NCBI RefSeq assembly: GCF_018100785.1
Contig: NZ_JAGJEC010000002.1
Coordinates: 248,001 to 312,000, forward strand
Source of the DNA: Maribacter sp. MMG018
GTDB taxonomy: Bacteria; Bacteroidota; Bacteroidia; Flavobacteriales; Flavobacteriaceae
DNA: 64,000 bases
Direction: 5' to 3'
Shown here: one piece after another, positions 48,608 to 64,000 of the stretch
Layout: each line of letters starts with the position of its first letter
Position numbering within the stretch: position 1 is the stretch's first letter
Made by a program: the position numbers and the translations under genes
Notes under the pieces: model-generated
Told to the model about the DNA's origin: nothing
The model's input: only the letters and a program-made list of their open reading frames with translations
The model's database searches: none

Positions 48608-48690
48608 GGGCCTAATTGTATTATGGCCATTGGTTATAAATGGGCATAGAAGATGTACAGAAGACGTTTTGTTTACCGAAAGTGGTTTAC

Positions 48691-48725
48691 CGTCTATCGA
48701 CACTTTTGCGTTATTCGTCTACAGC
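48691..48725 (+). promoter_or_regulatory. CGTCTA repeats upstream of the signalling operon
   Basis: CGTCTATCG (48691-48699) and ATTCGTCTACAGC (48713-48725) are spaced 25 bases apart and end 60 bases before the receiver gene. The second copy is almost identical to ATTCGTCTATAGC at 60033-60045 before the polysaccharide genes. Direct repeats of this size suit LytTR-type regulators, one of which is encoded at 54690. The binding protein is inferred. Confidence 0.4.
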
Positions 48726-48784
48726 TAACTTTTATTGTCTTAACTTTATAAGACTTTTGTTCCTTAAATTTAAAAACGCTTCTT

Positions 48785-49186
48785 ATGAACATATTGCTTA
48801 TTGAAGATGATAGTATAGAAATTATGAAATTGGAAAGAACCGTTTCTAAATTGGAGGTAAAGCATAAGATTACCAAAGCAAAGAATGGGGAAGAAGCATT
48901 GGAATATTTAAAATCGGATAGTAGGTTGCCCGACATTATTTTACTGGACCTGAATATGCCACGAATGAGCGGGATAGAATTTCTTTCGATTCTCAAGACA
49001 GACGAAGCATTTAAATACCTGCCTACTATTATTCTTACAACTTCTGAAAATAGGGCAGATTTACTGGAATGTTACAAAGCCGGAATAGCTGGATACATTA
49101 TAAAGCCTTTAAAATATGAGGATTACGAATCTAAAATTAAAAAGGTTTTGGCTTATTGGGATGTAAATGAACTGGTCAAAGCCTAA
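48785..49186 (+). CDS. Single-domain response regulator (CheY-like)
   Basis: 133 aa, receiver domain only. Acidic pocket IEDD near the start, phospho-acceptor Asp55 in ILLDLNMP, and the IILTTS and YIIKPL motifs. No output domain. It precedes the H-NOX gene by 77 bases in the same direction and may belong to the same operon; in a phosphorelay such a protein can carry phosphate between kinase and HPt. Direct target unknown. Confidence 0.9.
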   Translation: MNILLIEDDSIEIMKLERTVSKLEVKHKITKAKNGEEALEYLKSDSRLPDIILLDLNMPRMSGIEFLSILKTDEAFKYLPTIILTTSENRADLLECYKAGIAGYIIKPLKYEDYESKIKKVLAYWDVNELVKA

Positions 49187-49263
49187 CATAAAATAGTGAT
49201 TCACAACAAAAAACGAAATTTCTGTATTACTTTTCTTACTTTTAGTATGTTATTGAAAAAAGT

Positions 49264-49806
49264 ATGAAAGGAATAGTATTTACAGAATTTTTAGAAATGG
49301 TCGAGGCCAAATTTGGTTTAGAGACTGTTGACAATATCATCGAAAAGTCGAATTTACCTTCTCAGGGAATCTATACATCTATTGCTTCGTATGATTTTAA
49401 TGAAATGGTAAGCCTCATTACCCAATTAAGTGAAGAGGTAGGGCTTGCACCTGGAGACTTGATCTATGCCTTTGGGCTTTATCTTTTTTCGGGTCTAAGT
49501 AAATCGCATCCAGAGGTGATACAGAATTATAAAACGCCCTTAGGGCTTTTATATTCTATTGAAGACCACATACATGTACATGTGAAAAAGTTATATCCAG
49601 ATGCAGAATTGCCCACATTTAAAATACTGGAAAAGACAGATACTTCCCTTTCCATGGTCTATACTTCCTCTAGGGGACTTTACCGATTGGCACACGGTCT
49701 AATAGAAAAGACTTTCGAACACTTTAACGGCAAGGCGGAAATTACATACGAACTATTGAAGGAAGATGGCACCGAGGTAAAATTTGATATCGTTCAGTAT
49801 GGATAG
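49264..49806 (+). CDS. H-NOX haem/NO sensor protein
   Basis: 180 aa, the standard length for a stand-alone H-NOX. Haem ligand His102 in EDHIHVHVKKLYPDAELP and the propionate-binding YxSxR motif at Tyr133, Ser135, Arg137 (YTSSRGL). Starts MKGIVFTEFLEMVEAKFG, typical of the family. Such proteins bind nitric oxide and control a partner kinase. The next gene is a histidine kinase whose start overlaps the H-NOX stop by 8 bases, so the two are translated together. Confidence 0.95.
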   Translation: MKGIVFTEFLEMVEAKFGLETVDNIIEKSNLPSQGIYTSIASYDFNEMVSLITQLSEEVGLAPGDLIYAFGLYLFSGLSKSHPEVIQNYKTPLGLLYSIEDHIHVHVKKLYPDAELPTFKILEKTDTSLSMVYTSSRGLYRLAHGLIEKTFEHFNGKAEITYELLKEDGTEVKFDIVQYG

Positions 49807-52156
49807 TAAAGAAGTGATCCTCTTAAAAAAGGCGCTTGAAAGACAAAAAAAAGCCCGTCAACAAGCAGAAAGAATATTAGAGGAGAAATCAAATGAGCTA
49901 TATGATGTTACCCTTCATTTAAGGGAGGCCAATAATAGGCTGGAAAACCTTTTAAATGAAAAGACTTCAGAATTGGACGGTGTATTCATAAATATCATTG
50001 ATCCTTATGTAGTCATGGATCTTAATTTTGATATAATAAACATGAATTCATCCGCAAAAGAATTTCTGCAGGTGGATCATACCGAACAACGCGTAAACCT
50101 TTCAAGATTCATACATTCCGATTTTACGGATTATACCAGAGAGTCTGTGAACTCTATGATGAAGGTAGGTATTCTAAAAAACTACCGTGCCAAGATCAAC
50201 ATCAATCAAAATATCGTAAAATGGGTACAGATAAATGCCAGTCTTATCTATGATAAACAAAGAAATCCGATAGGTGCACAAGGTGTTATAAGGGATATAA
50301 CCCAAGAGATGGAAGTAAAAAAATTACTCTCCGATCAAAAAAAGCAACTTAACCTTATTATAGAAAACTCACCTTTGGGTATTGTTCTATCGTCTAATGG
50401 ATATATCGTTAAGGCCAATAATGCCTTTGTGAAAATGTTGGGTTATTCGGAAAATGAACTTAAAGATCTTTCCATTGAGAAAATTTCACGGCCCGATGAC
50501 CCTGATGAATTTAATTACCACATTAAGCAAATGTATGCCGGTAAGTTGAACAAATTTACCTCGATCAACAAAATCATAAGAAAGAACGGTAGTCCAATTT
50601 TAGCTAAAATGATGTTGAATGTCATTGCCGATGACAAGGATTCGCTAGATTATCAATTGGCAATTATAGAGGATATATCAAAAGAACACGAAGCCGAAAG
50701 AAAGCTCAAAGATTCAGAAAACAGGTTGTCAACATTGATTTCTAATTTACATACAGGTGTTCTGCTGGAAGATGAGGACCGTACAGTAGCATTGACCAAT
50801 CAAAGGTTTTGTAATATATTTTTAGTGCCCACAACACCCGAGCAATTAAAGGGTATGGATTATAGCCGATTTGCGGACCAGAATAAATTTCATTTTAAAG
50901 AACCAGAAGCGTTTGTAGAGCGAATAGAACAAATTTTGCGCGATAAAAAGGCGGTGTTGTCGGATGAACTTGAAATGGCCGATGGTAGGGTACTGGAAAG
51001 GGATTATATACCAATATACAGCGAAGGCATCTATAAAGGGCACTTATGGGCTTATAATGATGTTACCATCAGTAAAAAGCATAAGAAGAACCTTGAGGTT
51101 CAAAGAGAGAAGTATAGCAGTATTATAGCCAATATGAACCTTGGCCTTGTTGAAGTGGACAATGAAGACATTATACAAATGGTCAATCAGAGTTTTTGTC
51201 ATATGTGCGGTTATGAAGAACATGAACTTTTAGGTAAAAGGGCATGTGACGTTATCAGCATTAAAAATGATGAAATAATAAGGGAAAAGAATAAAAAGAG
51301 ATTGAACGGAGAATCCGATTCGTATGAGGTAGAGGTCATTACCAAAAAAGGAGATATAAGACATTGGCTTTTGAGCGGGGCACCGCGTTATAATGAGTCT
51401 GGTGCGGTAATTGGGTCCATAGGAATACATTTGGACATAACGAACCAAAAAAACTTAGAGTTGCAAAAAGAGAAATTACTTGGGGAATTGGAACTTAGTA
51501 ACCAAGGTTTACAAGAATACGCCCATATTGTTTCTCATGATTTAAAGTCGCCTTTACGAAGTATCAGTGCCCTAGCTACTTGGTTGAGCGATGATTATAA
51601 AGATGTGCTTGACGAAGGTGGCAAGCAAAACCTAGAGCTCATGCAAGAAAAAGTAGCTTCTATGGATAAACTGATACATGGCATATTGGAATATTCTACG
51701 GCGAACAGTGCCGAGCTCGACAATGCCAATGTAGACCTGAACAGTGTGGTGACAGAGATAGAAGAGGTTATCTATATACCCGATCATGTTCAGTTATCCG
51801 TTCCAAGAGAATTGCCCACGATTGTAGCGGATAGGACCAAAATGCACCAGCTTTTTCAAAATATCATAGGTAATGCGGTCGTGCATATAGAAAAAGACAA
51901 GGGGTTGGTAGAGGTATTATGGGAAGAAGAAGTGAATTTTTGGCATTTCACGATCAAGGACAACGGGGTAGGTATTCCAAAAAAATACCACCAAAAGATA
52001 TTCGATATATTTCAATCTATAGGAGAAAATGAGAGATCAACAGGTATCGGACTTTCTATAGTCAAAAAAATTATAGACCGTTATGGGGGCCGTGTATGGG
52101 TAGATAGCGAAGAAGGTGCGGGAACCGAGTTCCATTTTACGATCAAAAAAAATTGA
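49799..52156 (+). CDS. Multi-PAS histidine kinase paired with H-NOX
   Basis: 785 aa from ATG 49799; a TTG at 49784 lies inside the H-NOX gene. No membrane segment. Coiled-coil start (about 5-60), about four PAS domains (60-170, 180-300, 305-420, 430-550), dimerisation domain with H-box SHDLKSPLRSISAL (His580) and ATPase domain (NIIGNAV, DNGVGIP, TGIGLSIVKKI). Layout matches cytoplasmic kinases governed by H-NOX proteins. The HATPase is complete; no receiver domain is attached, so phosphate must go to a separate protein, probably the HPt/LytTR pair downstream. Gap of 18 bases to the FIST gene. Confidence 0.93.
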   Translation: MDSKEVILLKKALERQKKARQQAERILEEKSNELYDVTLHLREANNRLENLLNEKTSELDGVFINIIDPYVVMDLNFDIINMNSSAKEFLQVDHTEQRVNLSRFIHSDFTDYTRESVNSMMKVGILKNYRAKININQNIVKWVQINASLIYDKQRNPIGAQGVIRDITQEMEVKKLLSDQKKQLNLIIENSPLGIVLSSNGYIVKANNAFVKMLGYSENELKDLSIEKISRPDDPDEFNYHIKQMYAGKLNKFTSINKIIRKNGSPILAKMMLNVIADDKDSLDYQLAIIEDISKEHEAERKLKDSENRLSTLISNLHTGVLLEDEDRTVALTNQRFCNIFLVPTTPEQLKGMDYSRFADQNKFHFKEPEAFVERIEQILRDKKAVLSDELEMADGRVLERDYIPIYSEGIYKGHLWAYNDVTISKKHKKNLEVQREKYSSIIANMNLGLVEVDNEDIIQMVNQSFCHMCGYEEHELLGKRACDVISIKNDEIIREKNKKRLNGESDSYEVEVITKKGDIRHWLLSGAPRYNESGAVIGSIGIHLDITNQKNLELQKEKLLGELELSNQGLQEYAHIVSHDLKSPLRSISALATWLSDDYKDVLDEGGKQNLELMQEKVASMDKLIHGILEYSTANSAELDNANVDLNSVVTEIEEVIYIPDHVQLSVPRELPTIVADRTKMHQLFQNIIGNAVVHIEKDKGLVEVLWEEEVNFWHFTIKDNGVGIPKKYHQKIFDIFQSIGENERSTGIGLSIVKKIIDRYGGRVWVDSEEGAGTEFHFTIKKN

Positions 52157-52174
52157 GCAATCAAAAAGCGACAA

Positions 52175-53308
52175 ATGAGAGTAGTCCAGGCAATTAAAAA
52201 AACAGATAAGCCTTTTGTATTTATAGGTAGTGTAACGGAACTTAATAATCCGTTGGTGTTGGTCTTTGGAAATAGATATGCCCTAGAAAGCCCAACGATC
52301 TATGAAGAGGTACGAGAATTGTTTCCTACCGGACATATTGTATTTGGTACCACTTCGGGTGAGATCATAGACGAAATGGTTATGGAGGGAACTACCATAA
52401 TAAATGCTATAGAGTTTGAAAGGAGTGAATTTCTGATAAAAAGGAAAAATGTGGGAGATTATGATCACGATGATTGTTTGCTCGGAGAAAGTTTAATAAA
52501 AGAGTTTCCGGAAGAAAACCTAAGACATCTTTTTGTTATTTCGGAGGGGAGTACCGTGAATGGCAGTGCGCTTATAAACGGTTTGGAAAAAAATAAAAAA
52601 ACAAGTATTGGTCTTTCGGGGGGATTATGTGGAGATGATGATCGTTTTGAAAGAACACTGGTTTCCTATAATGAAAATCCGAAAGAAGGTGAAATTGTGG
52701 CCATTGGGTTTTATGGAAAAAGTTTAGAGGTAACGAGTGCCAACTATGGTGGTTGGACACCTTTTGGCCCAGAAAGGATCATTACCAAATCACAGGACAA
52801 TATTTTATACGAATTGGACGGTAAACCGGCTTTGGACCTATATAAAAATTATCTGGGAGAAAAGGCCTGTGAACTGCCAAAGTCTGCCTTACTATACCCG
52901 TTGAGCGTAAAAACTTCGGATAGTGCCGAACCAATAGTCCGTACTATATTGAACATAGACGATAAAGAAAATGCCATGATCTTGGCAGGTGATGTACCGG
53001 AAGGGGCAAAGGTTCAGCTAATGATGTCATCGGTAGATGATATTGCCAATGGGGCATACCAAGCGGCCCAGTTGGCCATGGAACGTAGAAATAACGAACC
53101 CGAATTTGCACTTTTGGTAAGTTGTATTGGCCGAAAACTGGTAATGGACCAAAGAACGGAAGAAGAAATAGAAGAGGTGAGATCTGTGGTAGGGGAGAAC
53201 ACGTTTATAGGAGGGTTTTATTCGTATGGGGAAATGGCCCCGTTTACGGAGAAAAATGCCTGTAAACTGCATAACCAGACAATGACTTTAACTTTATTTA
53301 GCGAATAA
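52175..53308 (+). CDS. FIST-domain (NosP-type) sensor protein
   Basis: 377 aa soluble FIST_N/FIST_C protein. FIST_N region: PLVLVFGNRYALE, HIVFGTTSGEIID, GLSGGLCGDDDRFERT and VAIGFYGKSLEV; FIST_C region: ELDGKPALDLYKNYLG, ALLVSCIGRKLVMDQRTEEE, FIGGFYSYGEMAPF. FIST proteins of the NosP group bind haem and nitric oxide and govern a co-encoded kinase. Here the stop overlaps the start of a histidine kinase gene by one base, as in NosP-kinase pairs. Haem binding is inferred from the family; other FIST proteins sense small molecules, so the ligand is not certain. Confidence 0.9.
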   Translation: MRVVQAIKKTDKPFVFIGSVTELNNPLVLVFGNRYALESPTIYEEVRELFPTGHIVFGTTSGEIIDEMVMEGTTIINAIEFERSEFLIKRKNVGDYDHDDCLLGESLIKEFPEENLRHLFVISEGSTVNGSALINGLEKNKKTSIGLSGGLCGDDDRFERTLVSYNENPKEGEIVAIGFYGKSLEVTSANYGGWTPFGPERIITKSQDNILYELDGKPALDLYKNYLGEKACELPKSALLYPLSVKTSDSAEPIVRTILNIDDKENAMILAGDVPEGAKVQLMMSSVDDIANGAYQAAQLAMERRNNEPEFALLVSCIGRKLVMDQRTEEEIEEVRSVVGENTFIGGFYSYGEMAPFTEKNACKLHNQTMTLTLFSE

Positions 53309-54372
53309 TGCATTCATTGTTAAGAAGACAATTAAAAAAATACCTTTCGGCAGACGTACAGTCTTTACCGGAAATCGAAGCTTTTTTAAAAGCGGTGGAA
53401 AAATCATATGAAAATTATGACGAGAAACTGGCTATGCTACATAGGGCAACCTCTATAAGCTCTGATGAGCTTTATGAAGCCAATAAACAATTGGAAAGTG
53501 AATTCGCCAGACAAAAAAACATTTTAACTTCACTAGAAAATGCGATTGGTAGTTTGACGGATAATCTGAAGGAAGAACAACCTTTCGGACAAAATATGAT
53601 TGATGAGTTCAATGCCGAACATCTAGCGGATTATATAAGTAATTTGGCTTTTCAGGTTGCACAAATGAACGAGGAAAAAGATAGGTTCTTAAAAAGTTTG
53701 GAAGAACAGAACCAAGCCTTGAACAGTTACGCACAAATGGTTTCACATGACCTAAAATCCCCTATCAGAAATATAAATGCCCTGATGAGCTGGATTATGG
53801 AGGACGAAAAAGACAAGTTTTCAGATTCAAGTAAAGAAAATTGCTCTTTGGTTTCTAAAAACCTGGAGAAAATGGATAAATTAATTTCTGGAATACTGAA
53901 TCATGCGACTCTAGGCAAAACCGAAGAGCAAAGAGTTGGTTTTGAACTAAAGGATGCTCTAAAAGAGATAGTACGAACAATATATGTGCCCGACAATGTT
54001 AAAATTGTACTAGCCGACAATCTTCCTAAAATGGTTTTTGAGAGAGCCCGTTTAGAGCAATTGTTCATGAATTTACTTACCAATGCCATATCTGCCACAG
54101 AAAAAAAGGAGCAGGGGTTGATAGAGATAGGATACGAACCAGATGATCTTTATTGGAAATTTATAGTTTCCGATAACGGTAAGGGCATTCCAGAACAATA
54201 TCAAGAAAGTATTTTTGAAATGTTCAAGAAGTTGGAAAATGAAGGTAACGGAACAGGAATAGGACTTGCTCTGGTAAAAAAAATAGTAGACCTGTATGAT
54301 GGCTGTATACGTTTAAAATCGGAAGAAGGCATAGGAACTATTTTTTATATCACGTTAAAAAAAGAATTATGA
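53308..54372 (+). CDS. Histidine kinase paired with FIST protein
   Basis: 354 aa cytoplasmic kinase. N-terminal helical part (about 1-135) with no PAS domain, then H-box SHDLKSPIRNINALMSW (His147) and an ATPase domain (LLTNAISATE, DNGKGIPEQY, TGIGLALVKKIV). The core is strikingly similar to that of the H-NOX-linked kinase (HDLKSP, then matching spacing to YVPDNV and the ATPase motifs), pointing to duplication within the operon. Stop overlaps the HPt start by 4 bases (ATGA). Confidence 0.93.
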   Translation: MHSLLRRQLKKYLSADVQSLPEIEAFLKAVEKSYENYDEKLAMLHRATSISSDELYEANKQLESEFARQKNILTSLENAIGSLTDNLKEEQPFGQNMIDEFNAEHLADYISNLAFQVAQMNEEKDRFLKSLEEQNQALNSYAQMVSHDLKSPIRNINALMSWIMEDEKDKFSDSSKENCSLVSKNLEKMDKLISGILNHATLGKTEEQRVGFELKDALKEIVRTIYVPDNVKIVLADNLPKMVFERARLEQLFMNLLTNAISATEKKEQGLIEIGYEPDDLYWKFIVSDNGKGIPEQYQESIFEMFKKLENEGNGTGIGLALVKKIVDLYDGCIRLKSEEGIGTIFYITLKKEL

Positions 54373-54689
54373 TAGAACAACCCAACCTTAAATATGTGGA
54401 TGATCTAGCAGGTGACGACGTTGCTTTTAGGCAGCAGTTCATCACTATTTTAAAAGAAGAGTTTCCTAAGGAAAGGGAAACATACATAGATCATGTAGAG
54501 AATAAAAGGACAAAAGAAACTGCGGCAATCGTTCATAAATTAAAGCATAAATTCAATATCTTGGGAATGGAAGAAGCTTATAGACTTGCCGTTACATATG
54601 AAAAGGAGCTTTTAGAGGGGCAAATAACTGCGGATGCCAAATTTAAAATGATATTGGACACCATTGCGGGGTATATTAAAAACATATAA
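54369..54689 (+). CDS. HPt phosphotransfer protein
   Basis: 106 aa, all helical. Phospho-histidine region IVHKLKHKFNILGM with His56, preceded by FRQQFITILKEEFP. Stand-alone HPt proteins pass phosphate between receiver domains. Here it lies between the second kinase (4-base overlap) and the LytTR regulator (no gap), which suggests it collects signal from one or both kinases for the regulator. Confidence 0.9.
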   Translation: MIEQPNLKYVDDLAGDDVAFRQQFITILKEEFPKERETYIDHVENKRTKETAAIVHKLKHKFNILGMEEAYRLAVTYEKELLEGQITADAKFKMILDTIAGYIKNI

Positions 54690-55400
54690 ATGAACTGTAT
54701 TGTTATAGACGACGAAGCAATGGCCAGGGCCATAATCACCAAATTATGTGGTACCGTTCAAGATTTGGATGTTATAGAGGAATTTGACAATGCTATCGAT
54801 GCGATCAAATTTTTAAACCAGCGGAGTGTTGATGTGGTCTATTTGGACATTCATATGCCCGGTTTTACGGGAGTAGATTTTGTACAGACCTTAAAGAATC
54901 CGCCCAAAATAGTTTTGACCACCTCAGACACCGATTTTGCCATTGAAGCCTATGAGTATGAGTGTATTGTAGATTATTTGGTAAAGCCGGTAACGCAAGA
55001 GCGTTTTGAAAAAAGTTTTCAGAAGGTAAAAAATGCCATAGTACAAAAACCAAAAGTAAACGGTAGTGAGAGTCAAGAAACCGATTTAGAGGGAGACCTC
55101 TACATAAATATAGATCGGCGATTGATAAAACTAAAGTTTAATGAGATATTGGTGATAGAGGCAAAGGGCGATTACATTGGGGTAAAAACGGAGAAAGAGG
55201 AATATCGCGTACATACGACCCTAAAAAAGATAAAAGAAAAATTGCCCGAAAAACTGTTTCTTCAAATACACAGATCATTTATCATAAACTTCACTAAAAT
55301 AATAGATATAGAAGATAATAGTGTATTGATAGAGAAAAATGTAATTCCTATCAGTAGATCTAATAGGCCAGAACTTATGAGAAGGTTAAACCTTTTATGA
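54690..55400 (+). CDS. LytTR-family response regulator
   Basis: 236 aa. Receiver domain with IDDEA and phospho-acceptor Asp53 in VYLDIHMPG, linker about 120-135, then a LytTR DNA-binding domain (RRLIKLKFNEILVIEAKGDY, RVHTTLKKIKEKLPEKLFLQ, IHRSFIINFTKI, IPISRSNRPELMRRL). It starts directly after the HPt stop and ends the operon. Its likely sites are the CGTCTA repeats before 48785 and 60142. An unusual point is that LytTR regulators are normally served by LytS-type kinases, whereas here the kinases are H-NOX/FIST-linked HisKA types with an HPt. Confidence 0.94.
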   Translation: MNCIVIDDEAMARAIITKLCGTVQDLDVIEEFDNAIDAIKFLNQRSVDVVYLDIHMPGFTGVDFVQTLKNPPKIVLTTSDTDFAIEAYEYECIVDYLVKPVTQERFEKSFQKVKNAIVQKPKVNGSESQETDLEGDLYINIDRRLIKLKFNEILVIEAKGDYIGVKTEKEEYRVHTTLKKIKEKLPEKLFLQIHRSFIINFTKIIDIEDNSVLIEKNVIPISRSNRPELMRRLNLL

Positions 55401-55509: not shown

Positions 55510-55920
55510 TTACGTTACATTATAAGCTTTGGTAAATATGCCGGCTAATTTTTTTCTATCTATAGGTTTTATCATGTAGTCGGTTAATTCCTCGTACTCT
55601 GCCGCTTTTTTTATATCACTTTCCCTTACCGAAGAACTGACTATATAAATATTTATCTGTTGTTCTATTTTTGATTTTAGTTTTTTGAACTCTGCCAGAA
55701 AACCCCAACCATCTAAAAAAGGCATATTAATGTCCAGAAAAATTACTTTGGGGAGCGTTTTTTTTTCTTTGGTACATTTACTTACAAATTCTACAGCTTG
55801 TTCCCCGTCAGTAAAGGAATTGACTTCAATGTCCTGCGTCATTTCCTTTATCGTTTTTTCCATAAGATAAAGGTACAGTTCGTCATCGTCAACCAATAAT
55901 ACGTTAGATTTTTTATCCAT
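55510..55920 (-). CDS. Single-domain response regulator paired with sensor kinase
   Basis: 136 aa receiver domain only: LLVDDDE, phospho-acceptor Asp63 in IFLDINMP, IYIVSSSVRES and YMIKPID. It follows the Cache-type kinase with a 2-base gap on the same strand and is very probably its phosphate acceptor. No output domain is visible. It converges with the LytTR gene. Confidence 0.92.
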   Translation of the reverse strand: MDKKSNVLLVDDDELYLYLMEKTIKEMTQDIEVNSFTDGEQAVEFVSKCTKEKKTLPKVIFLDINMPFLDGWGFLAEFKKLKSKIEQQINIYIVSSSVRESDIKKAAEYEELTDYMIKPIDRKKLAGIFTKAYNVT

Positions 55921-55922
55921 AA

Positions 55923-57710
55923 TTAAAATGTTATTTCAAATGTTGTGCCTACGTTCTCTTTACTTTTTATGGTGATTTTCGCATCTAGTGCCTCTAATTG
56001 TGATTTAACAAGAAACAACCCCATTCCCTTGCCCGAAATATTTCTATGAAACCGTTTATAGAGCTTAAAGAGGTTATCTCCGTGTTTTTCCAGGTCAATA
56101 CCTATACCATTGTCCGAAACGGATAAGACTTTGTTTTTATTTTCATAACGGGTTTCGAACAGTATATAAGAATATATATTTTCTCTTCTGTATTTAATGG
56201 CATTGGACATTAAGTTGTGAATGACGCTTCTTAGATAAAATTTAGAGAAGTCAACCTGTTGCCAAGCGTCCGATTTTATAATTACCTCAAAACTGTCGTT
56301 GTCTAATAGCGTCTCGGTAAAGTCTTTCTTAACCTCTTCTATTAGGTCGATAATGTTTACATCATCGATCTTAATTTCTCTATTGTCCAAGATGGTCACA
56401 TAATCGCTTATATCTTCGGTAAGATTGATAATACTCTTGGTAACTTGACCCAACTTAGGTAAAAGCATGGTGACATTTTGCGGCTCTTTTTCATTGTTGA
56501 TCATGTCCATTACAGTGGCCATGCTGGTTACAGGGGCCCTGAGGTTGTGAGAAACTAGATAATTGAACTCGCTTAACTGTTCGTTACGTATTTCTAAGCG
56601 GTGGTTCATATCGGTTATAAATTGGTTGTTTTTCAGTAACTTATCCCGGTTTTTGGTCAAAAGCTCGTTTTTTTCTTCCAATTCTTTATAAAAGAGCTCT
56701 TTTTGAACCCTATTTTTTTGAAGCATATAGGAAAGGGAGGCCAATAGAATAATTGCAAAAAAATTAAACAATCCCAATCCTTCGTATATGGGCAGCAAAC
56801 TAGCCTTTATCATTGAGGGGGAAGCCTCTTGGGCCAATTTCCAGTTCGTGGGGCTCACTACTTTGAGAGGAGCTCCCGAAAGGGTGTTATAACCCGAATC
56901 TATTTTATGTAGATTAACCTGTTGTATGGTCCAAATATGGTTGTTTTTAAAATAAGTGGTATCATGTTTTATTGCGTCCGGAACGGAGGTGTAAAGGTCC
57001 TCTAAAGAGGTGTTTCTTTCTAAAAATTCATATGGAAGATCCTCTTGGTATTTAGAAGAGGTGATAATTCTTTTATTGTTGTCCAATAGAAAAATATTGT
57101 TGTCCGAAGCCCTTAATTTAAGATAGTCAAGAATTCTCTTCATCTTAAAATTAATGACCACGATTCCCATTTTTTTTCCCGTTTTGTCATAAATGGGGCT
57201 TACGGCCCTGATGACGGGTTTATGGGGTTTTTCAATTTCCCCGTTTTCACGGTTTAGACTTATTTGCGAAAGGTATGTTTGACCGTGTTCCAATGCAAGT
57301 CCGTTCTTAACATATTCACGTTCAATTTTGTTTTGAAGCGGTCTTAGTTTTACAGAGTTAACTTTTGTTCGTTCTGCACGAAAAAATTCATTTCCCTCAA
57401 GATCTAAAAAACGGAATTGGTCATAATCCGTAATTCCCCTAATAATCTCTAAATAGGGGCTCATAAAAGAAACATGTTCTTTTAAGGGGTCAAAGTTTAT
57501 GGGGTACTTTAGTGTAGACCAATATTGGGTATTGTTAACAAATGAATAAAACTGGTCTTCTAGATATTTTTTTTTGATAGAGGTGTCCTTTCTTTGATAA
57601 TCGGACAGAAGTTCGATTTTTTCTTTTTTTTGGGACAGAAAAAGATACAGAGAGAGTATTAATACTGGAATATATAAATAGGCGAAAATTTTAAAAACTC
57701 TTTTCCTCAT
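55923..57710 (-). CDS. Membrane histidine kinase with periplasmic Cache-type sensor
   Basis: 595 aa. Membrane helix (about 8-26), large periplasmic domain (about 30-325) of double-Cache type (FRFLDLEGNEFFRAERTK, VIRAVSPIYDKTGKKMGIVV, IFLLDNNKRIITSSKY), second membrane helix (about 326-346), coiled coil, H-box FNYLVSHNLRAPVTSM, and ATPase domain (NLMSNAIKYR, DNGIGIDLEK, GKGMGLFLVKSQ). It senses a small molecule in the periplasm and signals to the receiver protein downstream. Located between the NO-type phosphorelay and the polysaccharide genes. Confidence 0.93.
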   Translation of the reverse strand: MRKRVFKIFAYLYIPVLILSLYLFLSQKKEKIELLSDYQRKDTSIKKKYLEDQFYSFVNNTQYWSTLKYPINFDPLKEHVSFMSPYLEIIRGITDYDQFRFLDLEGNEFFRAERTKVNSVKLRPLQNKIEREYVKNGLALEHGQTYLSQISLNRENGEIEKPHKPVIRAVSPIYDKTGKKMGIVVINFKMKRILDYLKLRASDNNIFLLDNNKRIITSSKYQEDLPYEFLERNTSLEDLYTSVPDAIKHDTTYFKNNHIWTIQQVNLHKIDSGYNTLSGAPLKVVSPTNWKLAQEASPSMIKASLLPIYEGLGLFNFFAIILLASLSYMLQKNRVQKELFYKELEEKNELLTKNRDKLLKNNQFITDMNHRLEIRNEQLSEFNYLVSHNLRAPVTSMATVMDMINNEKEPQNVTMLLPKLGQVTKSIINLTEDISDYVTILDNREIKIDDVNIIDLIEEVKKDFTETLLDNDSFEVIIKSDAWQQVDFSKFYLRSVIHNLMSNAIKYRRENIYSYILFETRYENKNKVLSVSDNGIGIDLEKHGDNLFKLYKRFHRNISGKGMGLFLVKSQLEALDAKITIKSKENVGTTFEITF

Positions 57711-57859: not shown

Positions 57860-59914
57860 TTATCTAGCCAGCTTTTTTGAAAAAATAGGTTTGTTCATAA
57901 AAAGCCATTTTATCTTAAAGCCAATTTCGGTAAACTCAAATCCGGCCGCAGTGGCAGAGGCAATATTGCTATACTTTCCATAAATTCGAGTATTTAGGCG
58001 TTTTGTTATTTGGTGCTGTATAGCGGCCTCGGCTCTAAAAATATTGGTGTTATCGTCTTTTTCTACTTGCTGAAAACCAGTAGCGGCACTGGCCATGTAA
58101 GTAGTTTTTTCTGAAATTTCTCCCCTAATGTCAACAAATAGCTCAAAGGCTTGGTATTGTTCTGGGCTAAAATAAATGGTAGGTAATTGCTCTTTAAATG
58201 TAATGTATTGGTAGTTGACTCCCATTTTTAAGGCTGGTTTTCGAAATAAAGAGTAATACAATGAGGTAAATAATAAGTTTCGAATATTGCTGTCACTCTG
58301 TTGTGTATGAATAAGTTGGGAATACCAACCAAGGTTTATGTTGGTTCCTAGGTTGTAGTTGATCCCATAGTGGTTTTGAACGATTTCACGTTCAATAAGG
58401 TCGGCATTAAAATTTTGTACTTCTCGTTGGTATCCCAAAGTAAGGTTTTGCAATTTAAAGGGTTGCAGCATTAATTTGGTATCTATTACCGGTTGAGTGT
58501 AAGCGTCATCCATAAATCTGGAATTATTGAAACCTAGTACTGTTTTTATGGTGGTTTTTGGAAGAATTTTATAGATCAATCCTGCCAGAACGACATGAGA
58601 ATTTGCCTTGTGTTCTGTAACGGTATTTTTTGTGGTACGATAAAAATAAGAAACGGTAGTTCTAAACTTTGATGAAAAAGGCAATTCGACGGTAGTATTT
58701 GTATAAAATGCAACATTATTGCCATTGTCAAACGTATAGGCCGCATGTTCCTCTATGCTAGGCGTATGCATTAAATCTAATTTTTCGATAAAACCTATGG
58801 CATCTTTTTGATTTTTATAAAAGGAAAGGGTCTTATGGGCCATTTCATATGCGGGCATTACATGATCGGCGGCAAATAGGGCATTTGCCTTGCCCAAGTT
58901 GCCATCAAAAGAAGTACTATCGTTGACCAATATTCTATCATAACTCTCGATGCTGTTTTTAGGCGAACCGGTATAAAGGCCTAACGTAGCTTTTAGGGCC
59001 AAAACCCAATTGGTGTTGGGGTATACCTTTTCAAGGCTGTCTATCTGTTTTTTGGCGGTTATAAATTTTCGGTTCCAGATCAATGCCTGTACATAACGAT
59101 CATAGGTGCGTTGGGTAAGTATGGTATCGTTAAAAAACGATACCATAGATTTGGCACGTAGAGCGGTTTTAAGGGCCTCTTTATCTTTTTCGTTTATATG
59201 CGAAGCCAAAGAGATACCGTTTAATGCGGTAACAGAATCTTTTGGGGTAGTGGCGTACCTCTTGTATATTTCAGTGGCACGCTCGGTGTTTTTGGTAATA
59301 AGATATAGGTTGGCCAAATTTAAAAGCGCATCCTTGTCTTCTGGAAAATCTAGAAAGATCGTGTTTAATATGGTTTCTCCTTCCTCATAATTTTGATCGT
59401 TCACAAATTCATTGGCGTAGCCCAATCGCATATACTTTCGAGAAACCTTCGCACTTTTGTTATCTGGTTGTAGGGCAAGCGCTTTTTCTATCCAATGTAG
59501 TGCAGATTCATATTCTTTTAAATTACTTAATGTGTTTGCATACCCCAGTAAGGCCCCAAATTTATCGGGGTTTTCGGTGACCAATTCTTGGTACAGAGGC
59601 TTCGCCCTATCGTATTCTTTTGCCCACAAAAAAGACTCATTATAATTGATCTGTATTTCAAAATCTTTTGGGTATTCGTCTAAAAGCTCTTTAAATAAGG
59701 TCGTCGCTTGTTGGGGTTCTCCACTTAAACCAACAGCTCTGGCATAACACAAACGGGCGGTCTTATTATTGGGGGCACTTTTTAAATAAGTTTCAAAAAA
59801 TGCTTCCGCTTCTTGAAAGTTACCTTTTTCCAACATTTCAAAACCTTGTGACATATCGGATTGTGCCCTCAATAAGGTAGTGAAAGCCAAAAAAAGAAAA
59901 AGAAATTTCCGCAT
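57860..59914 (-). CDS. TPR/outer-membrane barrel protein, exopolysaccharide exporter-like
   Basis: 684 aa. Signal peptide MRKFLFLFLAFTTLLRA. Nine or so TPR repeats (about 20-350; GNFQEAEAFFETYLKSAPNN, YDRAKPLYQELVTENPDKFG, EEGETILNTIFLDFPEDKDA), then an outer-membrane beta-barrel (about 390-684; VAFYTNTTVELPFSSKFRTT, INLGWYSQLIH, LKMGVNYQYITF) ending FMNKPIFSKKLAR. TPR-scaffold plus barrel is the layout of PgaA, PelB and BcsC, which export polysaccharides, and of YaiO-type proteins. Divergent from a flippase gene with a 227-base shared promoter region, and near glycosyltransferases. Export role is inference. Confidence 0.82.
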   Translation of the reverse strand: MRKFLFLFLAFTTLLRAQSDMSQGFEMLEKGNFQEAEAFFETYLKSAPNNKTARLCYARAVGLSGEPQQATTLFKELLDEYPKDFEIQINYNESFLWAKEYDRAKPLYQELVTENPDKFGALLGYANTLSNLKEYESALHWIEKALALQPDNKSAKVSRKYMRLGYANEFVNDQNYEEGETILNTIFLDFPEDKDALLNLANLYLITKNTERATEIYKRYATTPKDSVTALNGISLASHINEKDKEALKTALRAKSMVSFFNDTILTQRTYDRYVQALIWNRKFITAKKQIDSLEKVYPNTNWVLALKATLGLYTGSPKNSIESYDRILVNDSTSFDGNLGKANALFAADHVMPAYEMAHKTLSFYKNQKDAIGFIEKLDLMHTPSIEEHAAYTFDNGNNVAFYTNTTVELPFSSKFRTTVSYFYRTTKNTVTEHKANSHVVLAGLIYKILPKTTIKTVLGFNNSRFMDDAYTQPVIDTKLMLQPFKLQNLTLGYQREVQNFNADLIEREIVQNHYGINYNLGTNINLGWYSQLIHTQQSDSNIRNLLFTSLYYSLFRKPALKMGVNYQYITFKEQLPTIYFSPEQYQAFELFVDIRGEISEKTTYMASAATGFQQVEKDDNTNIFRAEAAIQHQITKRLNTRIYGKYSNIASATAAGFEFTEIGFKIKWLFMNKPIFSKKLAR

Positions 59915-60032
59915 TATACAAAAGTAAGATTAGTACTACAAGTGTCTAACGTTCATTATGTTGTTTTATTAGAACTATTGGACTTTATAAAGGTAAAGTA
60001 GCCTCTATATTCTCGGAAGTACGATAAACGCC

Positions 60033-60070
60033 ATTCGTCTATAGCAACTTGTATTCTATCCACTGTAGAC
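60033..60070. promoter_or_regulatory. CGTCTA motif in the divergent polysaccharide promoter region
   Basis: ATTCGTCTATAGC (60033-60045) followed by AACTTGTATT aligns with ATTCGTCTACAGC and AACTTTTATT at 48713-48736, with one gap. GTCTATAG and CTGTAGAC (60063-60070) also form an inverted pair. It lies 97 bases before the flippase ATG. A common regulator, probably LytTR-type, is inferred. Confidence 0.4.
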
Positions 60071-60141
60071 AAATAAAAGCATCTTTCAACGAGATATTTG
60101 TCTTATAAAATGTAAAGGATCAACACTATATTTTTCTTCTT

Positions 60142-61380
60142 ATGACTGCAATTAGATTAGCTTTTGAAAAAATTTCTCCAGAACGTTTGTTCATGGTTAG
60201 TGTACTTTTGGTAAATGGGGGCAACTACGTTTATAACTTGTTGCTGGGTAGAATACTTGGCCCGGCCGCATTCTCTGAGGCTGCCTTATTAATAACCCTA
60301 TTATTGGTATTGTCTTTTTTAGGAATGACATTTCAACTGGCGACGGCAAAATTCTCGGTATTGTTTTCGAACACTGACTGGGAGGCCTTTCAACAATTAA
60401 TGTATAGGTATGCACTTGCCTTTGGTGTAGTTATAGGGGTGTTACTTTTTGTATTTGCCGAAAACCTACAACAGATATTTCATACAGAGTCGAATGTATT
60501 GTTTAAAACCTTCGCAATAGGGGTGCCGCTCTACTTTTTTATGTCGGTGAATAGGGGTAAGTACCAAGGGGCGCAAGATTTTAAAAACCTTTCTGTAACC
60601 TATCAGGCAGAAATGTGGAGTCGGTTGGCCATTACGCTTTTGTTACTTTTGTTTGTACCCTTACAACCTGCTTTTTCGATATCGTTAGGTATTGCAGTCT
60701 CTTTTTTATTCGGTTTGGTACCTGCCAATTTTAATTTGGCGACCCTAGCAAAAAAAATTACCCTACCCAAGGCTCATAAAAAGAAGGTATGGAGTTTTTT
60801 AATTCTTACCGCTTGTTATGAACTTACACAGATTGTAATAAATAACAGTGATATACTTTTGGTAAAACATTATTTTGATGCCGCTGATGCCGGTCTATAT
60901 TCGTCGTTGGCCTTGATCGGTAGAGTGGTCTACTTTGTAGCATGGATGTTTGTAATGTTGCTACTACCTACCGTGGTACAAAAACAAAAGGATGGTGAAG
61001 CCACGGCCCCGATTCTTATAAAATATATAAGTTATATTGGAACCCTGTCTTTATCGATAGTATTGTGCTGCGCAATTTTTCCCAAATTTATTGTGCAAAT
61101 AATGTTTGGTGAAGCATACCTTTCAATGGCCCCGCTCTTATGGCAATATGCCTTGGCAACCTCTTTGTATGCGGTCTCCAATATATTCGCTTATTATTTT
61201 TTATCCTTGGATAAATACATTCCGGTTATAATATCGGGACTACTTGGGTGTACACAAGTAATATTGATCATGTTTTTTCATAACAGCCTATTTATCGTAG
61301 TACAAGTTCAGATTATTGCCATGGTTGCCCTATTGGTGGTACAACTACTGTACTTTATGCACCATCAAATTATGAATTAA
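60142..61380 (+). CDS. MOP-superfamily polysaccharide flippase
   Basis: 412 aa, about 12 membrane helices with no long soluble part. Features of Wzx/MATE-like polysaccharide transporters: LGRILGPAAFSEAALLITLL near the start, SVNRGKYQGAQDF, ITACYELTQIVINNSDILLVKHYFDAADAGLY and FFLSLDKYIPVIISG. It would move a lipid-linked or nascent polysaccharide across the inner membrane. Shares a divergent control region with the TPR/barrel exporter gene. PelG-like membership is possible but not shown. Confidence 0.85.
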   Translation: MTAIRLAFEKISPERLFMVSVLLVNGGNYVYNLLLGRILGPAAFSEAALLITLLLVLSFLGMTFQLATAKFSVLFSNTDWEAFQQLMYRYALAFGVVIGVLLFVFAENLQQIFHTESNVLFKTFAIGVPLYFFMSVNRGKYQGAQDFKNLSVTYQAEMWSRLAITLLLLLFVPLQPAFSISLGIAVSFLFGLVPANFNLATLAKKITLPKAHKKKVWSFLILTACYELTQIVINNSDILLVKHYFDAADAGLYSSLALIGRVVYFVAWMFVMLLLPTVVQKQKDGEATAPILIKYISYIGTLSLSIVLCCAIFPKFIVQIMFGEAYLSMAPLLWQYALATSLYAVSNIFAYYFLSLDKYIPVIISGLLGCTQVILIMFFHNSLFIVVQVQIIAMVALLVVQLLYFMHHQIMN

Positions 61381-61615
61381 CCGACAGTGGTCTTAAGGCC
61401 AAAATGTCTGGCCAGCGAATATTCCCCAATGTTGAGGCGGGTATTTTCCATTTAGGTATACCTAATAGAACAAAATGAACAGATCCTTTATCTAACCAAA
61501 CCTCCCGCTCATCTACGGTAAATAGTCATCTGTCTGCCACGACCCCTGAGCATATTGATATAACCGGATATTTGTATAGAAGATTTAATAAACAATCAAA
61601 CTTAAAATTAAACAA

Positions 61616-62842
61616 ATGAGACTAGCAATTGTAACGGCATACCCACCAAGTAAAGTAACGCTAACAGAGTATGGCTATCATTTGGTAAAGCATTTTAGGC
61701 TACAAAAGGAAGTAACGGAGATTATTTTGATTACCGATAGAACCGAAGGAGCTAAAGATGTTGATTTTGAAGAAGATGGGTGTAAGGTTACGGTGAAAGA
61801 ATGTTGGGCTTTTAATAATTATACGAACCTTATAAAAATAAATAAGGTAATCTCGGACACAAAACCCGATGCTGTATTCTTTAATCTTCAATTTTTAAAA
61901 TTCGGAGATAAAAAAATACCTGCGGCCCTTGGTTTAATGTTACCTTTTATTTGCAAATTAAAAGGTATACCTACCATTTCGTTATTGCATAATATTCTAG
62001 AGCAGGTAGACTTGGAAAATGCAGGCTTTACCTCTAATAAGGTATTGCAAAAGGCCTATAATTTTATAGGAAGTACATTGACCAAATTTGTTTTGGCTTC
62101 AGATATTGTGGCGGTTACGATCAGTAAATACAAGGGGATTCTTGAGAAAAAATACAAGTCTAAAAATGTCGCTTTGGTACCTCATGGTGCTTTTGAAATA
62201 CCGCCAGAGCCCAATTATGAACTAAAAAAAGGTCCGAAACAGGTAATGGCATTTGGTAAGTTCGGCACTTATAAAAAGGTGGAAATTATGATCGAGGCGG
62301 TTGAGTTGATAAGGCAGCGCACCAATGAGGATATTGAAATTGTAATAGCCGGTACCGACAGCCCCAATACCCCGGGGTATTTAGATACCATGAAAAAGAA
62401 ATATGCCCATGTAGGTCAATTACGTTTTACAGGGTATGTTGCAGAGGAGGATGTTCCGGTAATTTTTGGGGATAGTACCGTGGTGGTATTCCCGTATACC
62501 TCTACAACTGGTAGTTCTGGTGTATTGCACCAGGCGGGCAGCTATGGTAAGGCCGTTGCCTTGCCCGATATGGGTGACCTTGGTATTTTGGTAAAGGAAG
62601 AAGGCTACAGGGGAGAATTTTTTGAGCCGGAAAATACAGCATCTTTGGCAGATGCTATTGAGAATATATTAATGAACGATGCTTATAGGGTGCAGCTGGG
62701 CAGAACCAATTACAAAGCAGCATGTTCACTGCCCATGTCAGATATTACCCAAATGTATGTGGATTATTTTAGGGCGCTACAAATGACAAAATCGCCAGGA
62801 TTTAATATAGATATTGTCAAAAAAGAAAAAGAACTGGTCTAG
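61616..62842 (+). CDS. GT4-family glycosyltransferase
   Basis: 408 aa cytoplasmic GT-B glycosyltransferase. Start RLAIVTAYPPSKVTLTEYG, N-terminal Rossmann domain, hinge around SKYKGILEKKYKSKNVALVPHGAFE, then the donor-binding domain VMAFGKFGTYKKVEIMIEA, IVIAGTDSPNTPGYLD, FTGYVAEEDVPVIFGDSTVVVFPYTST..GSSGVLHQA and GEFFEPENTASLADAIENIL. The E-like catalytic region SSGVLHQAGSYGKAV is typical of the family. Donor sugar unknown. 235 bases follow the flippase gene; that gap contains a weak TCATCTACGG copy (61509-61518) of the shared motif. Confidence 0.92.
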   Translation: MRLAIVTAYPPSKVTLTEYGYHLVKHFRLQKEVTEIILITDRTEGAKDVDFEEDGCKVTVKECWAFNNYTNLIKINKVISDTKPDAVFFNLQFLKFGDKKIPAALGLMLPFICKLKGIPTISLLHNILEQVDLENAGFTSNKVLQKAYNFIGSTLTKFVLASDIVAVTISKYKGILEKKYKSKNVALVPHGAFEIPPEPNYELKKGPKQVMAFGKFGTYKKVEIMIEAVELIRQRTNEDIEIVIAGTDSPNTPGYLDTMKKKYAHVGQLRFTGYVAEEDVPVIFGDSTVVVFPYTSTTGSSGVLHQAGSYGKAVALPDMGDLGILVKEEGYRGEFFEPENTASLADAIENILMNDAYRVQLGRTNYKAACSLPMSDITQMYVDYFRALQMTKSPGFNIDIVKKEKELV

Positions 62843-63028: not shown

Positions 63029-64000
63029 ATGAAAATTCTAGCCATTGATGACCAACAGTTGATACTCTTATCTGTTGAAAAACGACTCAAAGAATTAGGG
63101 TATACTGTGATGACCGCCGAAACAGGTCAGAAGGGTATGGAATTATTCGATTCGTTTAATCCAGATCTTGTTCTTGTAGATATAAATATGACGGATATGT
63201 CCGGCTTAGAGGTGGTAAGGTACATAAAGTCAGAAGGAAAAAACAAGGTACAGGTAATGGTGATGTCCGGCAATACCGAAGAAAATATAATTATAGACGG
63301 CTTTACCTTGGGTATCGACGATTATATGAAGAAGCCAGTTAGTTTAGATGAAATGGCGGCCCGTATAAAAAGACTTATCGGAGTGCCAAAGGCTAATAAC
63401 AATGTAGAAACGGCGCCAGGTGCCAGAATGTTACAAAAGAACTGTGTAGGGGTTGTTATTCCGTGTTACAACGAAGAAGAACGTTTACTAAGTCTCCAGT
63501 TTAAGGATTTTGCCCATAAAAATCTCGGATATCACCTCTGTTTTGTAAATGATGGTAGTACCGATAATACCTTAGAGGTATTAAAGAAACTACAAGACGG
63601 AAGTGAAAGTAATATCAGTATTTATGACTGTGCCAAAAATGGAGGTAAGGCAGAGGCCGTACGCCAAGGAATGCTATTCTTGGAAAAAGATCCACAATTA
63701 GATTATATAGGTTTCTTGGATGCTGACCTATCTACCGATTTTAGGGATTTTGATGATTTGGTAGAAACATTGGACCAATCAAGTTTTAAAATTGTTAGTG
63801 GGTCTAGAATGAGTAGGATGGGGGCTAATATTACAAAAGAATCTGCCCGTAAGATCATTAGCATGACCATTAATCTTATTATTAGAACCATTTTAAGAAT
63901 GCCTTTTAACGATACACAGTGCGGGGCCAAAGTAATGGACCGTTCCGTTGTTCCCCTACTTTTTAGTAAACCCTTTATTACCAAATGGTTGTTCGATGTA
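63029..64000 (+). CDS. Receiver-GT2 glycosyltransferase fusion, 3' end outside window
   Basis: 324 codons are visible and the frame is open at the window edge, so the gene continues. Residues 1-115 are a receiver domain: IDDQQ at the N-terminus, phospho-acceptor Asp51 in LVDINMTDMSG, VMVMSGN and the conserved lysine of YMKKPVS near 102. After a 20-residue linker (about 118-137) comes a polyprenol-phosphate-type family 2 glycosyltransferase: VVIPCYNEEERL (142-153), VNDGSTDNT (173-181), KNGGKAEAVRQGM, the metal-binding FLDADLSTDF (229-238), VSGSRM and QCGAKVM. The fusion means sugar transfer is probably switched by phosphorylation. Not adjacent to any kinase gene in the window. Confidence 0.88.
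   Translation, partial: MKILAIDDQQLILLSVEKRLKELGYTVMTAETGQKGMELFDSFNPDLVLVDINMTDMSGLEVVRYIKSEGKNKVQVMVMSGNTEENIIIDGFTLGIDDYMKKPVSLDEMAARIKRLIGVPKANNNVETAPGARMLQKNCVGVVIPCYNEEERLLSLQFKDFAHKNLGYHLCFVNDGSTDNTLEVLKKLQDGSESNISIYDCAKNGGKAEAVRQGMLFLEKDPQLDYIGFLDADLSTDFRDFDDLVETLDQSSFKIVSGSRMSRMGANITKESARKIISMTINLIIRTILRMPFNDTQCGAKVMDRSVVPLLFSKPFITKWLFDV

Follow-up and report, generated by a model that had tools for sequence, protein, structure and literature searches.

How might nitric oxide (NO) be carried from a sensor to a promoter in the Bacteroidota? Most of what is understood about bacterial NO signaling comes from Proteobacteria, and the circuits mostly end in cyclic di-GMP (c-di-GMP). A 64,000-nucleotide stretch of the Maribacter sp. 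MMG018 genome (contig NZ_JAGJEC010000002.1, positions 248,001 to 312,000 of the forward strand; hereafter the window) raises this question through a set of seven genes, in which an H-NOX sensor and a FIST-domain protein, each followed by a histidine kinase, sit between a single-domain receiver and a pair of genes for a histidine phosphotransfer (HPt) protein and a LytTR-type transcription regulator. We propose that this unit encodes a four-step phosphorelay that is branched at its start, where two gas-sensor-type inputs can be exchanged, and that has a single transcriptional output, and we put the probability of this reading at roughly 0.65.

All seven genes lie on the plus strand. The first, RR1, encodes the single-domain receiver (48785-49186; Pfam Response_reg, 80.8 bits). 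It is followed by the H-NOX sensor (49264-49806; Pfam HNOB, 134 bits with a cut-off of 25.5, 5.6e-39), the soluble, non-hybrid PAS kinase HK1 (49799-52156; Pfam PAS, HisKA and HATPase_c), a FIST/FIST_C protein that is a relative of NosP and our proposed second sensor (52175-53308; FIST 142 bits, FIST_C 119 bits), and HK2, a soluble paralogue of HK1 without a recognized sensor domain (53308-54372; HATPase_c, with HisKA under its cut-off). The unit closes with the HPt protein, carrying His56 (54369-54689; 20.3 bits, which does not reach the Pfam cut-off of 24.6), and a REC-LytTR regulator, carrying Asp53 (54690-55400; receiver domain 62.2 bits with a cut-off of 30.2, LytTR 70.7 bits, 1.3e-19, with a cut-off of 22.6). 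An initial annotation of this DNA had named the H-NOX, PAS kinase, FIST, kinase, HPt and LytTR genes as a set that overlaps or is spaced by 0-18 bases from 49264 on. We found every member of it, by Pfam or, for the HPt, by predicted fold and conserved histidine, and measured distances of -8, +18, -1, -4 and 0 nucleotides. The 8-nucleotide overlap with the H-NOX stop places the start of HK1 at the ATG at 49799; the mechanically called open reading frame (ORF) begins at a TTG at 49784. RR1, to which the annotation gave little weight, is separated from H-NOX by 77 nucleotides and is part of the unit too. Scans for sigma-70 promoters (31, vs 24.1 with a standard deviation of 5.0 in shuffled sequence) and terminators (7, vs 4.5 with a standard deviation of 2.3) were at about shuffle level and were not used. 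In their own genome, the H-NOX and FIST genes of the window are the sole matches of their kinds.

The initial annotation had also suggested looking for the same gene order across Bacteroidota. We found H-NOX in 78 of 199 Flavobacteriaceae genomes (77 of 198 genera), mostly inside this operon, with or without the FIST-HK2 pair. The 80 H-NOX places that we fetched from the family make up, with the window, 81 loci, some of them clipped by contig ends. Beside H-NOX in these loci we observed RR1 in 78, HK1 in 80, HPt in 71, LytTR in 69, and FIST and HK2 in 41 each, a co-occurrence that is not chance. The exact order RR1-HNOX-HK1-FIST-HK2-HPt-LytTR was kept in 30 of the 81 loci over the span examined and RR1-HNOX-HK1-HPt-LytTR in 24, the remaining loci being variants or clipped contigs. 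A sample of the whole phylum had H-NOX in 27 of 395 genomes, from which we fetched 20 H-NOX places, 13 outside the family and seven further same-family loci. Outside Flavobacteriaceae, the full unit was present in only one of the 13 (L116, from another family of the same class). Six of the seven same-family loci held the unit up to HK2 (the exception is L132), and in five of those six HPt and LytTR follow in line after HK2; L131 has both on the opposite strand. A named collection of at least 80 loci, fetched with operon FIST queries and accordingly biased to FIST loci, with near-duplicates included, had the complete seven-gene order in 71 of 80 (counted from the listing). Its genera include Maribacter, Zobellia, Cellulophaga, Allomuricauda, Flagellimonas, Aquimarina, Winogradskyella and Flavobacterium, and a Lutibacter locus (L207) has the same genes in a different order. 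Locus L153, from Maribacter sedimenticola, is identical in sequence to a locus (L044) of genome G075, which belongs to the same genus as the window. Conservation of the gene set bears out the annotated idea of a unit that joins two NO-type sensor/kinase pairs to one HPt-LytTR output; the assignment of the second pair to NosP and to a NahK-type kinase did not survive closer comparison, as set out below.

If the kinases feed this output, through which steps does the phosphate pass? Pfam detects no receiver domain in HK1 or HK2, and HPt proteins normally take phosphate from a receiver aspartate. A separate receiver would therefore be needed for the HPt, and direct transfer from the kinases to the HPt, as initially annotated, is unlikely; RR1 offers the missing step. 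Its residues D8, D55 and K107 are present in 78 of 78 loci and D9 in 74 of 78. H56 is kept in 71 of 71 HPt relatives, and the LytTR regulator retains D8, D53, T78 and K99 in 69 of 69 and D7 in 68 of 69. A pattern search recovered an SHDLK-type histidine box in 76 of 80 HK1 and 40 of 41 HK2 proteins. The HPt is predicted to form a helical bundle (mean pLDDT 95.1) whose best matches in the PDB are HPt domains, 3myf and BarA 3iqt (TMq 0.75 and 0.68; Foldseek E 0.02-0.07, with no PDB match at E of 0.001 or below), and on this model and the conserved H56 we identify the 54369-54689 protein as an HPt. The minimal four-gene form of the operon, RR1-HK-HPt-LytTR, reads as the parts list of a His-Asp-His-Asp relay. 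The Bacillus Spo0 phosphorelay joins several kinases to one single-domain receiver, one phosphotransferase and one DNA-binding receiver, and the same four kinds of component are all present here with their phospho-sites intact; the type of phosphotransferase and the outputs differ from Spo0, and the inputs here are gas-sensor-type proteins. Transfer from the kinases to RR1, then to HPt and last to LytTR is likely, given the lack of kinase receivers, the intact RR1 acceptor, and the split loci and lone LytTR orthologues described next.

Natural variation among the loci separates the constant from the exchangeable parts. We built a tree of RR1, HPt and LytTR from 91 loci, in which 44 carry H-NOX and FIST, 33 H-NOX alone, two FIST alone and 12 neither. 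This set was drawn by H-NOX or HPt, with L178, L196 and L207 added by hand, and is not a random sample; some of the 12 loci with neither sensor are clipped contigs (L235, L236, L240). By parsimony, H-NOX changed 12 times and FIST 20 times, but well-supported branches force far fewer (five for the group with both), and the number of gain and loss events is uncertain. Chassis-only operons, RR1-HK-HPt-LytTR without H-NOX and FIST, occur in L233, L234, L237, L250 and L251. In the Flavobacterium-type loci L126-L131, the H-NOX groups with those of other families (SH-aLRT 99 percent; the quick tree behind this value carries a long-branch warning) and the remaining operon genes are of the usual type; the operon H-NOX seems to have been replaced by one of a different lineage. 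A third HK2-type kinase lies between HK2 and HPt in L127, L128 and L178, where three kinases may feed one relay. Given this gain, loss and replacement across loci, we conclude that RR1-HPt-LytTR is the constant part and that sensors and kinases are exchangeable.

In other loci the unit is divided or rearranged. RR1 remains with the sensor kinases in L039 and L106, and the HPt-LytTR pair of the same genome lies in a second locus (L250, L251), which carries its own RR1 and its own kinase. L053 and L066 have kept sensors and HPt and lost LytTR from the operon, and a LytTR orthologue, single and 74-75 percent identical, persists elsewhere in these genomes. All eight genomes searched have exactly one LytTR orthologue, scoring at least 302 bits, with the next best match at 169 bits or below. 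An orphan FIST-HK2 pair (L134, genome G002) has no receiver, HPt or LytTR nearby, and the only close LytTR orthologue of G002 is inside its H-NOX operon. In L078 (genome G135) the order is HNOX-HK-RR1-REC/HPt-LytTR, the HPt being fused to an extra N-terminal stretch that is receiver-like by eye only. A locus of Saccharicrinis aurantiacus (L225), of a genus that we take to lie outside Flavobacteriaceae, has an HK1-type kinase, an operon-type FIST and HK2, with no receiver, HPt, LytTR or H-NOX adjoining.

We asked whether the two kinases share a target. Among 31 matches of the HK2 core in its own genome, HK1 is the best after HK2 itself (192 bits, 42 percent), and the next scores 92 bits. A quick tree, built with 20 of the genome's 29 other kinase matches and nine kinases from other FIST loci, places the HK1s, HK2s and third kinases together in a single starred clade (98 percent). 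Partner choice in histidine kinases is set at positions His+7, +11 and +12; both window kinases have R, A and L there, a combination found in none of the 20 other genome kinases compared. Since HK1 and HK2 are closest paralogues, both probably phosphorylate RR1. The initial annotation had seen in FIST and HK2 a NosP/NahK-type pair. HK2 scores 75.9 bits against the NCBIfam model for NahK/ErcS (NF041832, cut-off 400) and lacks a hybrid receiver, and the kinase tree makes it a copy of the operon's own kinase, which together rule out a NahK-type kinase that arrived with FIST.

The first sensor has the sequence marks of an H-NOX. The proximal heme ligand His104 is present in 79 of 81 loci, as are the residues of YxSxR, the heme-propionate motif of H-NOX (Y133 and S135 in 80 of 81 each, R137 in 75 of 81). 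At the position expected for the O2-stabilizing Tyr140 of the Thermoanaerobacter protein, the window protein has Leu142, which fits NO selectivity, and membership of the family makes NO its likely ligand. Its best PDB relatives are 6bde (E 4.6e-59) and 6bdd (3e-58), the latter being the solved structure of Kordia algicida H-NOX (PMC7356049). The words kinase and operon are absent from the excerpts of that paper.

The second sensor is harder to place. It shares the FIST plus FIST_C architecture of NosP, and it scores 62.8 bits (3e-17) against the NCBIfam NosP model NF041558, whose cut-off is 450. Rather than NosP itself, as first annotated, the protein is by these scores a NosP relative outside the equivalog, and because the cut-off is missed by so far, heme is not implied. 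Its predicted fold (pLDDT 91.1) is closest in the PDB to the FIST-domain protein FBXO22 (8ua3, E 9.6e-11); with an E limit of 1, sequence comparison against solved structures yielded no FIST relative, and only the fold comparison did so. Cys152, within a GGLCGDD stretch, is present in 38 of 41 operon FIST proteins and in none of 18 non-operon or divergent ones, which makes it a candidate heme ligand or redox site, and His366 is present in 39 of the 41 and also in most of the 18 others. That the two sensors discriminate NO level or redox state is a guess. The ligand and heme content of FIST are, together with the sign of the NO effect, the weakest part of our explanation. We discarded the notion that all FIST genes in the family are part of the system, as only L133 and L134 of 20 FIST regions carry an operon-type FIST with its kinase, the remaining 18 having other kinases or none. 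The loci L135-L148 hold a separate FIST family, mostly followed by kinases of another type (core scores of about 80-100 bits), without H-NOX or relay adjoining.

Which promoters would such a relay reach? We found a direct repeat, CCATTCGTCTACA, with a period of exactly 21 bp and a half consensus close to CCATTCGTCTACACTTAA, upstream of RR1 and of neighboring exopolysaccharide and adhesin genes. Tandem CRYCNAYA occurs upstream of RR1 in 74 of 167 regions (duplicates kept), and all pairs are exactly 21 bp apart though 19-23 was permitted; there were none on the other strand, and 50 shuffles gave an average of 0.06. A 47-bp matrix run over 201 loci (3.67 Mb) returned 287 matches of at least 15 bits, compared with zero for each of six column-permuted matrices and one for the reversed matrix. 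Of these matches, 161 are at RR1 (138 loci) and 126 are elsewhere, at places not used in training, and none of the latter is inside a called ORF. Judged by the nearest gene, labeled by similarity to one representative of each kind, 82 of the 126 precede genes for a DUF4114 secreted protein, glycosyltransferase, TPR/BcsC protein, flippase, STAS protein or REC-glycosyltransferase; two are near operon-type genes (HK1core-type, HPt) and 42 have no labeled gene in reach, several of these preceding, by eye, sugar-nucleotide dehydrogenase-like or chain-length-type proteins. The site center lies at a median of 92 bp before the ORF start at RR1, 78 at DUF4114, 91 at STAS, 88 at the glycosyltransferase, 128 at the TPR protein and 342 at the flippase, where the distances fall into two groups. 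Among 148 distinct loci with RR1 and at least 250 bp upstream, 120 score at least 15 and 133 at least 5 bits.

The site also keeps company with the operon and its regulator. In 14 whole genomes, mostly picked for known good sites, so that the search speaks to site location and not frequency, a strict pattern gave 34 matches in 12 genomes, 31 of them within 25 kb of H-NOX, and its reverse gave none. The site is present in 128 of 137 loci with an adjacent LytTR gene, vs 3 of 8 otherwise (Fisher p 1.9e-4). AlgR, the LytTR regulator of alginate, binds the core site CCGTTCGTC (PMC4064291), one base off the repeat core CCATTCGTC. We infer that the LytTR regulator of the operon is the reader of the 21-bp repeat.

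Within the window, the best match to the matrix is the predicted LytTR operator upstream of RR1 (48687-48733, plus strand, 34.3 bits). The second (60028-60074, plus strand, 8.4 bits) is a weaker predicted operator between divergent TPR-protein and flippase genes, the third (61502-61548, plus strand, 3.5 bits) a degenerate one upstream of a glycosyltransferase, and the fourth (2.3 bits) falls within the REC-glycosyltransferase gene; the best score in five shuffled 64-kb windows, one strand each, was -1.8 bits. The second and third sites keep the distance (91-92 bp) at which most other Maribacter have their stronger sites. Among named Maribacter loci, the region upstream of the flippase scores 5.9-22.7 bits in seven of nine, with two clear misses, and that upstream of the glycosyltransferase 14.1-30.7 bits in all eight regions found among 10 loci. 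The proposed targets are a TPR and BcsC-type outer-membrane protein (57860-59914, minus strand; Pfam TPR, BCSC_C), a polysaccharide flippase (60142-61380, plus strand; Pfam Polysacc_synt_3) and a glycosyltransferase (61616-62842, plus strand; Pfam Glycos_transf_1). A possible further target is a receiver fused to a family 2 glycosyltransferase (63029-64000, plus strand, continuing beyond the window to about 64168, L253:5530-6669; Pfam Response_reg, Glycos_transf_2 on L253:5530-6666), which might also be phosphorylated directly by the relay as a second, post-translational output. An apparent second copy of this fusion, judged from its N-terminal sequence only, lies in the polysaccharide locus at L253:15331-16485. 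Similar neighbors recur around the unit: in 165 loci (near-duplicates included, domains read from cluster representatives) we counted TPR/BcsC proteins in 59, DUF4114 in 50, STAS in 40 and flippases in 29. Between the relay operon and the TPR/BcsC gene, and converging on the operon, are a single-domain response regulator (55510-55920, minus strand) and a membrane kinase that has a Cache-like sensor (55923-57710, minus strand). The regulator is in the same place in 10 of 10 named Maribacter loci (L153-L162) and the kinase in nine, L158 being a shorter piece.

A search for GGDEF domains was negative in all 14 genomes, vs 8 of 14 control genomes positive; EAL and HD-GYP domains were not searched genome-wide. 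The output domain of the unit is LytTR, unlike that of NO/c-di-GMP circuits of the HnoB, NarR or NosR type.

The mechanism that we propose from these sequence comparisons would run as follows. H-NOX, binding NO at its heme, would set the activity of HK1, and the FIST protein that of HK2, a duplicated copy of the HK1 core. Both kinases would phosphorylate RR1 at Asp55, from which the phosphate would pass to His56 of the HPt and on to Asp53 of the LytTR regulator. The phosphorylated regulator would then bind CCATTCRYCKACA repeats with a 21-bp spacing, which typically lie 70-100 bp ahead of start codons, and drive its own operon, in a positive feedback, along with adjoining genes for exopolysaccharide export and synthesis and for secreted adhesins. 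NO would thereby switch matrix production by transcription, in bacteria where we found no GGDEF domain. By analogy with the H-NOX/kinase pairs of Shewanella and Vibrio, NO may lower phosphorylation and with it matrix expression. Taken further, the proposal describes a c-di-GMP-free NO-to-biofilm circuit in Bacteroidota, in which exchangeable sensor/kinase cassettes plug into a fixed RR1-HPt-LytTR relay, the regulon is roughly the operon itself and the adjacent exopolysaccharide/adhesin locus, reached through AlgR-like repeats exactly two helical turns apart, and the private Cys152 gives the FIST input a signal of its own (heme or redox state), distinct from that of H-NOX, so that the relay combines two cues. 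For this fuller version we see about even odds.

Several observations weigh against our reading. Because regions upstream of RR1 served to train the matrix, the RR1 counts are partly circular; only the matches elsewhere are independent. These were not de-duplicated, and 19 of 221 loci are near copies. The strict pattern, which allows up to three mismatches, is absent from genome G072 and from the Maribacter genome itself, in the latter case because the window site has four mismatches, and the two polysaccharide sites of the window are weak, at the 8.4 and 3.5 bits given above. Site and regulator do not always travel together: L250 and L251 have LytTR and no site before RR1, and L039, L050 and L132 keep the site with no LytTR found downstream. 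L053 and L066 lost the site along with the operon LytTR, and the orphan FIST gene of L134 is without one. Shared descent alone could account for the residues common to HK1 and HK2, and the comparison of His366 and Cys152 yields no nameable heme ligand in the FIST protein. L107 holds RR1-HNOX-HK1 while its genome, G167, does not appear in the list of genomes that have an HPt match, which means that RR1 can accompany H-NOX without this HPt. In 8 (L242-L249) of 20 regions around strong HPt relatives, the HPt stands without any other gene of the unit, and HPt paralogues therefore exist outside the relay. L107 and the solitary HPt genes slightly lower our confidence.

Three other explanations deserve comparison with the relay. 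LytTR regulators are commonly direct kinase partners, and the receiver of this one is complete at the residues counted above, so HK1 and HK2 might phosphorylate it directly as two parallel two-component systems on a shared transcript, with RR1 and HPt as a phosphate sink or tuning side branch; RR1 and LytTR could then dock on the same kinase type. RR1, HPt and LytTR are, however, kept with similar strictness (78, 71 and 69 of the 81 loci), also within the minimal four-gene operon, and HPt is directly before LytTR in most loci. We consider parallel systems improbable. Equally improbable, in our estimate, is a relay that serves mainly to switch in answer to redox, light or metabolism, in which the PAS domains of HK1 are the main sensors and H-NOX and FIST minor modulators. 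The chassis does exist without H-NOX or FIST, and HK1 varies between about 400 and 950 amino acids in most loci, but in 77 of 91 loci (clipped contigs and hand-added loci included) H-NOX lies with the chassis, and its heme histidine is almost invariant.

A stronger contender concerns the second input, which may not be NO: the FIST protein could sense labile heme, another small molecule or, through Cys152, redox, with the relay integrating NO with that cue. The distance of the protein from the NosP equivalog and the restriction of Cys152 to operon FIST proteins speak for this, as does the Vibrio cholerae FIST protein CdpA, which is reported to be heme-responsive (PMC8846402). Pulling the other way, kinase-adjoining FIST proteins are reported to bind heme or NO and to set their kinase (PMC12570481, PMC11237717), and the place of this one in an operon with H-NOX suggests that the two signals are related. 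We hold a non-NO second input to be a real possibility that falls somewhat short of even odds.

How much of the branched phosphorelay is new? H-NOX/kinase pairs, FIST/kinase pairs, Spo0-like relays and AlgR-like polysaccharide control are each already known. H-NOX and NosP of Shewanella oneidensis reportedly act jointly on one network, as described by Nisbett in 2019. As in that H-NOX/HnoK and NosP network, of which HnoX-HnoK-HnoB is a part (PMC8846402), an H-NOX and a FIST-type sensor would act here on one signaling network, but the Shewanella output consists of the c-di-GMP enzymes HnoB and HnoD, whereas here it would be transcription through RR1-HPt-LytTR, with all parts in one operon. In Vibrio, NosP-VpsS (Vibrio cholerae) and H-NOX-HqsK feed the HPt protein LuxU (PMC6769237, PMC8738867). 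The sequence of NO sensors, kinases, one phosphotransfer protein and a transcription regulator, there LuxO, is similar; the Vibrio kinases are described as hybrids and join quorum sensing, unlike the arrangement here with its separate receiver protein and its predicted LytTR output at polysaccharide genes. Legionella pneumophila has, like our operon, an H-NOX, a kinase and a CheY-like single-domain receiver in one operon (Hnox2-Lpg2458-Lpg2457; PMC8738867, PMC11237717), and the excerpts of these papers describe the downstream step as unknown and mention no HPt or LytTR. Pseudomonas aeruginosa AlgZ-AlgR (PMC4064291) likewise uses a LytTR regulator for exopolysaccharide, with the near-identical core noted above; the AlgR sites described are dispersed over promoters, in contrast to the tandem sites at exactly 21 bp here, which would be under relay input from H-NOX and FIST. 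A survey already noted FIST genes within five genes of H-NOX for H-NOX group 1 (PMC8738867, section 10 and figure 6 legend), a group that includes Cellulophaga and Runella and has no conserved zinc cysteine site (PMC8738867, PMC7108781); operon architecture, relay, output and target are not described in its excerpts. The initial annotation had supposed a LytTR output of such a relay to be undescribed. We found no description in the open-access papers searched of an RR1-HPt-LytTR relay under H-NOX and FIST, of its operator or of its polysaccharide regulon; the convergence of H-NOX and NosP and the proximity of FIST to H-NOX had been reported before.

H-NOX occurs in 77 of 198 sampled Flavobacteriaceae genera, yet GGDEF was found in none of the 14 genomes checked. 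If our reading is true, these bacteria would have a route from NO to biofilm that does without c-di-GMP. The proposed wiring would span the distance from gas sensor to promoter in a whole bacterial family, with a precise predicted DNA site, and natural gain, loss and swap events show which of its parts are sensors and which are chassis. NO control of matrix production in Bacteroidota would thereby become a directly testable question.

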